Part shown: positions 2,810-15,364 of the stretch, in pieces
Position numbering within the stretch: the first letter of the stretch is position 1
Layout of the letters: each line of letters begins with the position of its first letter
IMG/VR virus record: IMGVR_UViG_3300046048_000112
Span: 1 to 21,317 of that record
Length of the DNA stretch: 21,317 bases
DNA from: a virus
Direction: 5' to 3' (one strand)
Translations under genes and position numbers: made by a program
Notes under the pieces: generated by a model
Databases searched by the model: none
What the model was told of the DNA's origin: nothing
Seen by the model: the letters and a program-made list of their open reading frames with translations, nothing else

Positions 2810-3529
2810 ATGAAAGAGTTTGAGTTTAACCATGCGCAACAATCGTGGGACAGATACAAAGAGTTCCACACAACTGGGTGGGATCATCCGTTCGTTGAGT
2901 TTGCCAACGGGCAACTCATCATCACCCACCTCCCTAACCCTCGCAATCGGAAGATGTATGACAGGTACGACATACAGTTGGTGACTACCACCGATCCCGA
3001 CGTTCCCCGTCTGTACCTGAACAGTGAGGACGAGAACCCCATACCCAAAGCATGGGTGCAACAGGGTGGGCAACAGTATCTGGCAGTAGATTGGGAGCGT
3101 GAGGTAGCTGTTGCTATCGGCTACCTTTGGTACAAACAGGGTACGCCCACACACTGGACAGAATCAGTGCCCGACAACATCAACGGTGCGAGTGTGTACT
3201 GGTCTGGCCCGAAGCGTCTGCCCATAGCACTGTGTGGTATCACCGTCAGCACCCCCGACAAGGTACGCAACGCAGAAATCCAAGAGAAACTAAGGGAAGT
3301 TATCCCTGCCCTCCATGCTATCGAGCGGATGAAGAACCCACCCATCCCTCGCTACCTGCACGGTGGGAAGATAGACCTGAAGGTGGAGTGGCTTGACCTA
3401 ACAACTGAGCAACTCGTTGCTGAGTTATCTAGGGATGACCACACTCTAAAATCCGTGACACGGTGCGGGTTCAACTCGTTGCGTGTCGTTCAAGAAGTAC
3501 CTTACCTCTACGTTAAGAAAGGAAACTAA
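2810..3529 (+). CDS. Hypothetical protein (239 aa)
   Basis: The ATG lies 2 bases after the previous stop with a GGAGGAATAG site. The product appears globular, with many aromatic residues and no transmembrane segment or recognised motif. A middle stretch reads like beta-strands (QYLAVDWEREVAVAIGYLWY), and the C-terminal third contains a charged helix-like region. It belongs to the same transcription unit as the metallopeptidase/VWA gene and may be part of that cassette. No function can be assigned from the sequence. Confidence 0.75.
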   Translation: MKEFEFNHAQQSWDRYKEFHTTGWDHPFVEFANGQLIITHLPNPRNRKMYDRYDIQLVTTTDPDVPRLYLNSEDENPIPKAWVQQGGQQYLAVDWEREVAVAIGYLWYKQGTPTHWTESVPDNINGASVYWSGPKRLPIALCGITVSTPDKVRNAEIQEKLREVIPALHAIERMKNPPIPRYLHGGKIDLKVEWLDLTTEQLVAELSRDDHTLKSVTRCGFNSLRVVQEVPYLYVKKGN

Positions 3530-4906: not shown

Positions 4907-5113
4907 ATGAAACAACCGACCATTCGCCAGTTGGAGCTGGCGAACCCCGAGTTCTTTTCCCCAGAACTTGGGAAGTACGGAGAGATCACAAGCCACAAGT
5001 TCGAGCAAGAACCATCGGGGCTGATGTGGAAAGTCCGTACTAAGTTAGGAACGTACCCAGTGTACAGGGTTGGTAAAGATTTGTCACTGGATTACGTAAG
5101 GCATGGGTGGTAA
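4907..5113 (+). CDS. Small hypothetical protein (68 aa)
   Basis: The start ATG follows AGAAGGAGA and is the first gene after the promoter region at 4838-4877, which makes it a leading gene of the transcript. The product is soluble and mixed in charge, with a probable beta-hairpin (SGLMWKVRTKLGTYPVYRVG). No known family is recognised. First genes of phage early transcripts are often host-takeover or regulatory proteins, but nothing in this sequence shows that directly. Confidence 0.65.
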   Translation: MKQPTIRQLELANPEFFSPELGKYGEITSHKFEQEPSGLMWKVRTKLGTYPVYRVGKDLSLDYVRHGW

Positions 5114-5115
5114 CC

Positions 5116-5328
5116 ATGCCTGTGCTAATGAACGAAAAGTATCTTCGTGAGTTAGCGGAACTGGTGGATGGCCTTACTGATAAGGACATCTGCCCAGAGG
5201 ATGGTGCACGGCTACTGGCGAAACTGCTGGACGCCGTGCCCATCCTTGTTTCGCAGATAATCAACCTTCAACAGGCGCTTCTCGAAATCAATCCGAGCAC
5301 GCCCCCAACAACAAGGAGGTTACAATGA
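5116..5328 (+). CDS. Small helical acidic protein (70 aa)
   Basis: The ATG at 5116 is preceded by GGGTGG. A GTG at 5107 in the same frame is an alternative that would overlap the previous gene. The product is mostly leucine-rich helix with alternating acidic residues (YLRELAELVDGLTDKDICPE and a following ARLLAKLLD stretch), consistent with a small dimerising protein. Its stop TGA overlaps the ATG of the XRE regulator that follows, so the two are probably translationally coupled. It might be a partner of that regulator; the family is unknown. Confidence 0.6.
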   Translation: MPVLMNEKYLRELAELVDGLTDKDICPEDGARLLAKLLDAVPILVSQIINLQQALLEINPSTPPTTRRLQ

Positions 5329-13582: not shown

Positions 13583-13987
13583 ATGAACCTAGATCAACTG
13601 ACTGGAAAGTATGTAGAACTGCGGGATAGGCGCTCTGTGCTGAAGAAACAGTACGAGCAAGATGATGCGTCTCTCAAGGTCATAATGGAGAAGATCGAAG
13701 ATCGACTCCGTGAGATGTTGACCGACATGGGGGCCAACAGTGCAAACACAGCGCATGGCACGGTGTACAAGACGTACAAAGAGTTTGCCAACGTAGCGGA
13801 TTGGGACATGGTTCTCAACTTCATCCGTGACAACGAACGTTGGGACATGCTCGAACGCAGGATCAGCAAGACTGCGGTCAAGGACATCATGCACCAGACC
13901 CCAGAAGGAACGTATCTTAACCCACCCCCACCGGGGGTCAACTTCTCACGCACGGAAGTCGTGCAAATTCGGAGGAAGAACACATGA
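13583..13987 (+). CDS. Coiled-coil protein of the SSB operon (134 aa)
   Basis: The ATG has AAAGGAGGTTCC upstream and is the first gene of the promoter at 13528. Residues about 1-45 form a charged coiled coil (KYVELRDRRSVLKKQYEQDD and on), then a beta-type stretch (TVYKTYKEFANVADWDMVL) and a C-terminal PPPPGVNFSRTEVVQIRRK segment. Comparable small phage proteins occur directly before SSB- or recombination-type genes, but the family is not named with confidence. Its TGA overlaps the ATG of the SSB-like gene, so they are probably made together and may interact. Confidence 0.65.
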   Translation: MNLDQLTGKYVELRDRRSVLKKQYEQDDASLKVIMEKIEDRLREMLTDMGANSANTAHGTVYKTYKEFANVADWDMVLNFIRDNERWDMLERRISKTAVKDIMHQTPEGTYLNPPPPGVNFSRTEVVQIRRKNT

Positions 13988-14949
13988 GCAAAAACGAAAT
14001 CGCATTAGTGGACATGGACAACGTACCGGCCTACCTTCGTGACCCGGGTCGCGCACGTGAGATGAACGCCGAAGCTACTGCTGGCATCAGCACCGGCTTC
14101 CCGCCCAGCATCCGCATCAAGAACGGCAAGTTCCGTTTGGTCGACGGCGCTGGCGAAGAGACCGTGCTGAAGCACACCGATCTGAAAGAGGGCATCTACC
14201 TCGACATGGTTGTGTTGCGTGCCAAGCCGGGACTGAACAAGGTGTGGTATGCCAAGCCGTACGATCCCAATGCAGAAGCGTCTGCTCCTGACTGCTTCTC
14301 CCTCGACGGTTCTCGCCCTGACCCCAGCGTGCGTGAGCCTCAGTGCGGTACCTGTGCCGCATGCCCGATGAACGCTTGGGGTTCCGGCCGCAACCAAGCA
14401 GGCGAGGCGACCAAGGGTAAGGCATGCGCCGACAACAAAATCCTTGCTGTTCTGCACAAGGGTGGCGTGTACCAGTTCAAGATTCCACCGGCATCCCTGA
14501 AGAACTGGGGTGTGTTCGTGAAGAATCTGTCGGCCCGTGACATCCCGCTCGGGGCTGTCATCGTTTACGCTTCGTTCGACGACGAAGTTGATTACTCGGT
14601 GCTGACGTTCCGCGTCGGCAACTTCATCCCCGAGACCCACATCGACCGGCTGATCAAGATCGCAGGCTCGCCCGAAGTGGAAGAGATCATCAATCCTTCT
14701 GCTCCGCCTAACCCTCCGGTCAACCAGCCCGGGGCTGACAAGGTGCCTGAGACTAAGGCCAAGCCCAAGCCTGCTCCTGCTCCTGACCCCACTGCCGATC
14801 TCTTCGGTGACGGTGACGAAGGGGAATCCAGCAAGGAGAAGGAAGAGAAGCCGAAGCGCACCACTCGCCCTGCCCCGGCCAAAAAGGACGAGGAAGACGT
14901 CAGTGATGTTCCGACCGATGCCGAGATCGCTGCAAGCCTCGGCCTCTAA
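13984..14949 (+). CDS. Probable single-stranded-DNA-binding protein with zinc site and acidic tail
   Basis: The ATG follows GGAGGAAGAAC and overlaps the previous stop. The 321-residue protein has a beta-rich core (residues about 40-220: IRIKNGKFRLVDG, LDMVVLRAKP, VYQFKIPPASLKNWGVFVK, SVLTFRVGNF). A cysteine cluster (Cys104, 121, 124, 127 and 148, including CGTCAACP) probably binds zinc. The C-terminal third is Pro/Lys-rich and then acidic, ending with alternating charges (ADLFGDGDEGESSKEKEEK, then DEEDVSDVPTDAEIAAS). This layout, core plus flexible acidic tail, is that of phage SSBs such as T7 gp2.5 and T4 gp32, and its promoter and position in a replication cluster agree. It is not a standard OB-fold SSB, so the function is inferred. 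Confidence 0.65.
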   Translation: MSKNEIALVDMDNVPAYLRDPGRAREMNAEATAGISTGFPPSIRIKNGKFRLVDGAGEETVLKHTDLKEGIYLDMVVLRAKPGLNKVWYAKPYDPNAEASAPDCFSLDGSRPDPSVREPQCGTCAACPMNAWGSGRNQAGEATKGKACADNKILAVLHKGGVYQFKIPPASLKNWGVFVKNLSARDIPLGAVIVYASFDDEVDYSVLTFRVGNFIPETHIDRLIKIAGSPEVEEIINPSAPPNPPVNQPGADKVPETKAKPKPAPAPDPTADLFGDGDEGESSKEKEEKPKRTTRPAPAKKDEEDVSDVPTDAEIAASLGL

Positions 14950-14965
14950 TACCTGATAGGCTTCT

Positions 14966-15053
14966 GGGGATTGTCCCGTTACAGGGTTCCCAGCCCTGTA
15001 GACGGGTGGACGTCCAAAGGGCGATGGTGGGTTCGAGTCCCACCCCTTCCCCG
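14966..15053 (+). ncRNA. tRNA-like structured element of unclear status
   Basis: The 88-base span closes with GGGGA (14966-14970) against TCCCC (15048-15052). It contains a textbook T arm (GTGGG TTCGAGT CCCAC, 15027-15043) and a variable-arm-like hairpin CGTCC-AAA-GGGCG (15011-15023), giving a class II tRNA length. A hairpin ACAGGG-TTCCCAG-CCCTGT (14981-14999) would give a U33-containing loop with anticodon CCC, but it is embedded in a longer 12-bp hairpin with one bulge (14975-15006), and no canonical D arm is visible. The acceptor match is only 5 bp. It may be a divergent or decayed tRNA, a tRNA-like regulatory RNA, or an attachment-site fragment of a tRNA. No gene covers 14950-15064. Confidence 0.4.
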
Positions 15054-15076
15054 GTTCCTTAGTTATGGAGAGTCCT

Positions 15077-15364
15077 ATGAATGAGCTACCATCATTTGCT
15101 TATGTGCTGAAGGTTATGGAGAACGCTGGCCTGACCCCCACGGAGATGATAAACCTCCTCCCGATCGGCCGCGCCACGTTCTACAGTTGGAAAAGAGGTC
15201 AGCCAATCGGTGACATTTTACGTTATCGGCTTACCATTGCGAGGTGCAAAGTTATAGAGCAGGCTACACTTGCTGGTAAATTACCATTGTCCGTCAACGT
15301 CCTGAGAAGTTCGAGGAGACCCGCGATAGAGAAAGCGTTGGCCGAAGCTCGTCTATCTCGTTGA
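15077..15364 (+). CDS. Small helix-turn-helix-like protein (95 aa)
   Basis: The ATG at 15077 is preferred because GGAG lies 6 bases upstream; an ATG at 15065 has no such site. Residues about 18-40 (GLTPTEMINLLPIGRATFYS, then WKRG) resemble a helix-turn-helix of the transcriptional regulator or terminase-small-subunit type, and the rest is basic with an Arg-rich tail. It lies just after the tRNA-like element and before the primase-helicase, whose promoter begins at its stop codon, so it may regulate that gene. Fold suggested only by pattern. Confidence 0.6.
   Translation: MNELPSFAYVLKVMENAGLTPTEMINLLPIGRATFYSWKRGQPIGDILRYRLTIARCKVIEQATLAGKLPLSVNVLRSSRRPAIEKALAEARLSR

Follow-up and report, generated by a model that had tools for sequence, protein, structure and literature searches.

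A tRNA-like element behind an SSB-like phage gene as a possible substitute for the hairpin of its relatives

The window, by which we mean the whole stretch of DNA analysed here, comprises 21,317 nucleotides of the virus record IMGVR_UViG_3300046048_000112. The gap between its SSB-like gene and the next gene on the plus strand holds a structured element with several tRNA-like parts. The genes and features of this region are as follows.

13984 to 14949, plus strand: upstream gene, SSB-like; assigned to a PHROG of unknown function, with a low-confidence model giving OB-like matches only and an acidic disordered tail
14964 to 15054, plus strand: tRNA-like element, both strands of its closing stem included, read from the sequence and folded
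14964 to 14970, plus strand: 5' strand (CTGGGGA) of the predicted closing, acceptor-like stem; pair probability 0.88-1.0 in contexts of 115 and 221 nt
14975 to 15006, plus strand: predicted 12-bp hairpin with one bulge and the loop TTCCCAG (14987-14993), anticodon-arm-like; persists in every context tested
15011 to 15023, plus strand: predicted triloop hairpin CGTCC-AAA-GGGCG, variable-arm-like
15026 to 15044, plus strand: T arm GGTGGG-TTCGAGT-CCCACC, from sequence reading and a T-arm scan
15048 to 15054, plus strand: 3' strand (TCCCCGG) of the predicted closing stem
15077 to 15364, plus strand: small downstream gene, HTH-like by eye; start placed by GGAGAG at 15067-15072 and by alignment with the related locus L026
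15361 to 15390, plus strand: promoter-like site TTGACT-18-CATAAT before a DUF927 gene; a comparable sequence occupies the corresponding position in L026

That the upstream gene encodes an SSB is a fair guess. The protein model has a pLDDT of 61, its Foldseek matches are not significant, the OB-like rows of VIA-align reach Z 3-5 and the protein matched no solved structure and no Pfam family; we therefore only infer its identity. The open reading frame of the small downstream gene opens at 15065, but the gene probably starts at 15077, behind GGAGAG, which would make 14950-15076 the true gap. Relatives of this small gene were found on the contig of L026 only. Just upstream of the element no site resembling a promoter was detected, which makes transcription within the message of the SSB-like gene most likely. 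An intrinsic terminator was considered and dropped, as the element does not combine a GC stem with a T run and no plus-strand terminator-like site was found between 13400 and 15600.

The T arm has a 6-bp stem and the canonical GGTTCGAGTCC, and its loop agrees with the TTCRANY pattern of canonical tRNAs. The central hairpin reads CCCGTTACAGGG-TTCCCAG-CCCTGTAGACGGG with one bulged base. In the closing stem, 14964-14970 pairs with 15048-15054 through C-G, U.G, four G-C and A-U pairs. Four bases, TTGT, join this stem to the next arm in the predicted fold, whereas on the other side the unpaired CCT at 15045-15047 separates it from the T stem. The predicted fold has no D stem, and the element carries no CCA. 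An earlier sequence-only reading had described a perfect T arm, a triloop hairpin, a bulged 12-bp hairpin with a 7-base TTCCCAG loop and the lack of a standard D arm, all of which we recover. The 5-bp closing stem that it named exists as well, but is part of a stem of 7 bp, and its claim that a 7-bp acceptor cannot be fitted does not hold in that form: such a stem is there, three bases away from the T stem.

The minimum free energy of the element is -50.4 kcal/mol (z -2.6), none of 200 shuffled sequences was equally stable, and the region is the second most stable 110-nt stretch within the 21 kb. Pair probabilities in the 115-nt and 221-nt contexts are mostly 0.9-1.0, falling to 0.62-0.68 beside the bulge. 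When the context is extended to at least 331 nt (331 and 601 nt), pairing with the upstream coding region displaces the closing stem, the triloop hairpin and the T arm but leaves the 12-bp hairpin intact. Upstream translation or co-transcriptional folding would be needed for the tRNA-like form to persist. A more extreme structure than the tRNA-like element was met elsewhere in the window: the sequence at 5130-5270 on the plus strand, inside the reading frame 5107-5328, folds into a three-way junction of great stability (-60.5 kcal/mol, z -5.7).

Strict T arms arise by chance 27 times per 10 Mb, both strands counted, in Markov sequence of the same dinucleotide make-up, which corresponds to a probability of about 1.6e-4 for a single strand of 115 nt. 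The T arm thus exceeds chance. When the flanks are shuffled around the fixed T arm, a 7-bp closing stem no more than four bases from the T stem appears in 11% of the sequences, and a closed loop with at least three branches in 7%. Given the T arm, the remaining cloverleaf is weakly better than chance and only suggestive, so that it is the T arm which carries the tRNA signal.

With default settings ARAGORN called no tRNA at the element. The relaxed run that had been proposed did return low-score calls, which contradict each other. Rfam gave nothing at the gathering threshold for the element or the window, and the best tRNA-type score of the element was 16.5 bits for tRNA-Sec (RF01852), against a gathering threshold of 47. 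In a canonical tRNA the 7-bp acceptor sits directly on a 5-bp T stem; here CCT intervenes. The loop at 14987-14993 does have the form of a 7-base anticodon loop with U33, but the minimum free energy fold pairs part of it. Of the marks of a tmRNA, neither an RF00023 match nor a G3.U70 pair was found, the third pair of the closing stem being G-C, and a tmRNA remnant was considered and dropped. We likewise dropped a mobile repeat, as the slot elements have no copies elsewhere in the loci examined beyond the T arm.

The slot behind the SSB-like gene was followed through its relatives. Three scans gathered 149 family loci with sequence beyond the stop codon, 93 of them distinct. A single-sequence scan with the DUF927 protein gave no relatives, while an alignment together with L026 gave 339, of which 80 were kept. 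Slot statistics were calculated for 62 distinct gaps of 30-180 nt, nine of them with lengths set by hand. Their mean z of -2.38 compares with -0.35 for coding stretches of equal length (p 3.5e-14, an optimistic value because some of the gaps are related to each other). The window's own slot belongs to this pattern: the sequence separating the SSB-like stop codon from the next gene is stably structured, at z -2.2 to -2.6. Simple GC hairpins account for most of the 62 gaps, among them the gaps of L026 and L032, the closest relatives. The hairpin persists even where the next gene differs, as seen by eye for instance in L038 and L041, which ties it to the end of the upstream gene. The hairpins of L026, L032, L037 and L061 share slot and strand with the window element, are stable, have no T run and are soon followed by the next gene; unlike it, they are single stem-loops without T arm or branches.

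A second T arm was found in the slot of L035/L117 (GCGGG-TTCGAAT-CCCGC). It is part of a tRNA-like fold with further arms and a 9-bp closing stem, CGGGCGGTG/CACCGCCCG, directly beside the T arm; the pair probability of this stem is only 0.4 in a 160-nt context. Both T arms run in the sense of transcription. As the two cases need two changes on the tree of the SSB proteins, separate gains are the simplest reading; one gain with later losses is a possible alternative. The slot elements exchange rapidly: in L117, L121, L122, L123 and L124 the DNA flanking the slot is 83-93% identical on either side, but their slot elements are unrelated, L124 having a plain hairpin, L117 the tRNA-like fold and the other three different sequences with GC-rich closing stems. 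The many-armed structures are less certain than the hairpins because several of them have unremarkable z-scores of their own (L035 -1.5, L123 -0.5, L063 0.2). Among the records searched, no homologue of the exact window element was found, and a DNA similarity search of phage records returned nothing. In bacterial genomes the SSB-like family gave two MAG matches, neither with a T arm. Rfam found nothing at gathering in the loci and slot elements except Hammerhead_II in L019.

Two further structures in SSB-like gaps should be mentioned. Nine loci (L172, L174, L175, L176, L177, L178, L180, L181 and L185) have in common a long, conserved hairpin in which GGGGAA faces AGTACCCC, an arrangement that recalls a loop-E motif. 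Five of the loci were searched against Rfam and gave no match. In the gap of L144 lies an inverted repeat, perfect over about 17 bp, which encloses a branched interior (z -4.7) and may be a small mobile element.

tRNA frames also occur in some members of the family after the helicase gene, where tRNA-Leu-like bodies were located.

L133, 107 to 212: tRNA-Leu-like body
L138, 736 to 848: tRNA-Leu-like body
L203, after position 1692: remnant of a tRNA-Leu-like body

The bodies of L133 and L138 sit behind a promoter-like sequence, TTGACA...TAAGGT. Acceptor, D-arm sequence, T arm and CCA are intact in both, and their anticodon regions are entirely different. L203 has a decayed 5' remnant, and L205 and L206 have none. 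This pattern fits the reuse of a scaffold and the decay of a tRNA alike.

Unusual T-arm elements were also noted at other viral loci. L285 contains a mini tmRNA of 84 nt at 3336-3419 on the minus strand, where an endolysin gene ends. It scores 63 bits (E 1.9e-24) with the Rfam tmRNA model and lacks about 290 model positions, namely the tag reading frame and the pseudoknots. Elements consisting of acceptor and T arm that ARAGORN does not call were seen in L240 and L263 (60 nt, minus strand, with one other hairpin), before an Erf-like gene in L236 (5917-6017) and as a 46-nt minihelix in L019 (2260-2305). The hammerhead ribozyme of L019, of type II, lies at 3175-3241 on the plus strand, about 900 nt from that minihelix (42.3 bits, gathering 37).

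We tentatively favour, at somewhat less than even confidence, the explanation that the element is a tRNA-derived or tRNA-mimicking intercistronic RNA, which after the SSB-like gene does the job of the relatives' hairpin. As a stable boundary it would protect the upstream message against 3' exonucleases, and it may uncouple this message from the small downstream gene. The T arm together with the closing stem could be recognised by tRNA enzymes, chiefly RNase P, and a cut by RNase P on the 5' side of the element, which is conjecture, would make the message end. Published substrates of this enzyme among phage RNAs and mRNAs (PMC11143913) lend the step some encouragement; it is weakened by the three bases between closing and T stem and by the absence of CCA. 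Against a substitute for the hairpin also count the competition by the upstream coding region in long contexts and the fold outside the T arm, which only weakly beats shuffled flanks. The regulatory tRNA mimic in the SSB transcript envisaged by the sequence-only reading gains partial support from a slot that is structured throughout the family and from the second T-arm element of L035/L117.

An intact T arm next to a broken remainder is also what would be left if a tRNA gene had entered the slot and was degenerating, its D arm gone, its T arm surviving by recency and its fold without a selected role. The decayed 5' part that L203 keeps of a tRNA-Leu-like gene, fuller in L133 and L138, would be a parallel. 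However, the slot is structured in most relatives, the slot of L035/L117 holds a T-arm element with a long closing stem, and a lone T arm without acceptor continuity would be an odd survivor, so that we consider decay unlikely, if worth keeping in mind. The complete replacement of slot elements between phages so similar on both sides is what an arms race predicts, and L133 and L138 keep their tRNA frame around two different interiors; both would suit a decoy or regulatory small RNA, that is, a free-standing tRNA mimic binding a host factor or a tRNA-directed defence. The sequence directly before the element shows no promoter-like site, though, a plain hairpin suffices in most relatives and no target is known, and we take this to be quite improbable. 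It is very unlikely that a GC-rich gap simply formed two ordinary hairpins, one of which happens to resemble a T arm. The weak significance of the remaining fold given the T arm would agree with this, but the chance rate per slot given above is low, and two of the 62 distinct slots hold a strict T arm.

Even less probable is an attachment site, in which a copy of a host tRNA 3' end would be used for integration. This had been suggested before, and many isolated T arms in viral contigs adjoin integrase-like genes, as judged by eye. But no tyrosine integrase or serine recombinase was found in the 21 kb of the window (possibly a fragment), and among nine relative records one has a tyrosine integrase and none a serine recombinase. 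Furthermore, the 26-nt T-arm/acceptor end had no match in the genome collection, where exact matches were searched, which leaves the suggestion unsupported. Hardly any weight can be given to a functional tRNA of unusual build or to a tRNA-like domain of the tmRNA type: TTCCCAG would suit an anticodon loop (U33, CCC, A37), the long helix without D stem recalls the tmRNA domain and the tRNA-Sec score points weakly in the same direction, whereas neither ARAGORN at default nor Rfam calls the element, D arm, CCA and G3.U70 are missing and the T and closing stems are not contiguous.

A wider and rather speculative reading is that the SSB-like gap, and in some members the helicase gap, is a swappable RNA cassette. 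The frame of acceptor and T arm would be reused as a scaffold around a hypervariable interior, with tRNA-processing enzymes making and protecting a non-decoding RNA or a message end. The mini tmRNA of L285, the 60-nt forms of L240 and L263 and the 46-nt form of L019 would then belong to a broader phenomenon. If the element does replace the relatives' hairpin, phages would employ tRNA-like folds as interchangeable message-end elements, phage mRNA processing would be tied to RNase P, and some of the T arms skipped by tRNA finders in viral contigs would be explained. The slot offers a natural experiment, as near-identical phages differ locally in one structured RNA.

In the literature searched there is no description of such an element, but several known systems resemble it in part. 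Like the window element, the tRNA-like domain of tmRNA (RF00023) combines T arm and closing stem with a long helix and has no D stem; the window element differs in matching neither this family nor the tmRNA D-loop sequence, and in the missing G3.U70. tRNA-Sec has a long variable-arm-like hairpin in common with the weakly scoring element, which in contrast has no D arm and no UCA in its loop and stays below gathering. The mascRNA/menRNA family (Rfam RF01684) offers a comparison for how the element might work, as its members are small tRNA-like folds that end a transcript on the 3' side, and the L117 element scores 21.7 bits with it. However, these RNAs are eukaryotic, that score is below the gathering threshold of 42.5 and the window element is unmatched. 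RNase P was reported to process phage RNAs and the mRNA of the T4 SSB gene, gene 32 (PMC11143913). Its substrates phi80 M3 RNA, the precursor of P1/P7 C4 RNA and T4 gene 32 mRNA are, like the proposed message, phage transcripts with tRNA-like features (PMC11143913). The window element is unrelated to them in sequence and has no CCA, and its cleavage would be conjecture; with T4 gene 32 mRNA it would share, in addition, the position on an SSB message (PMC11143913).
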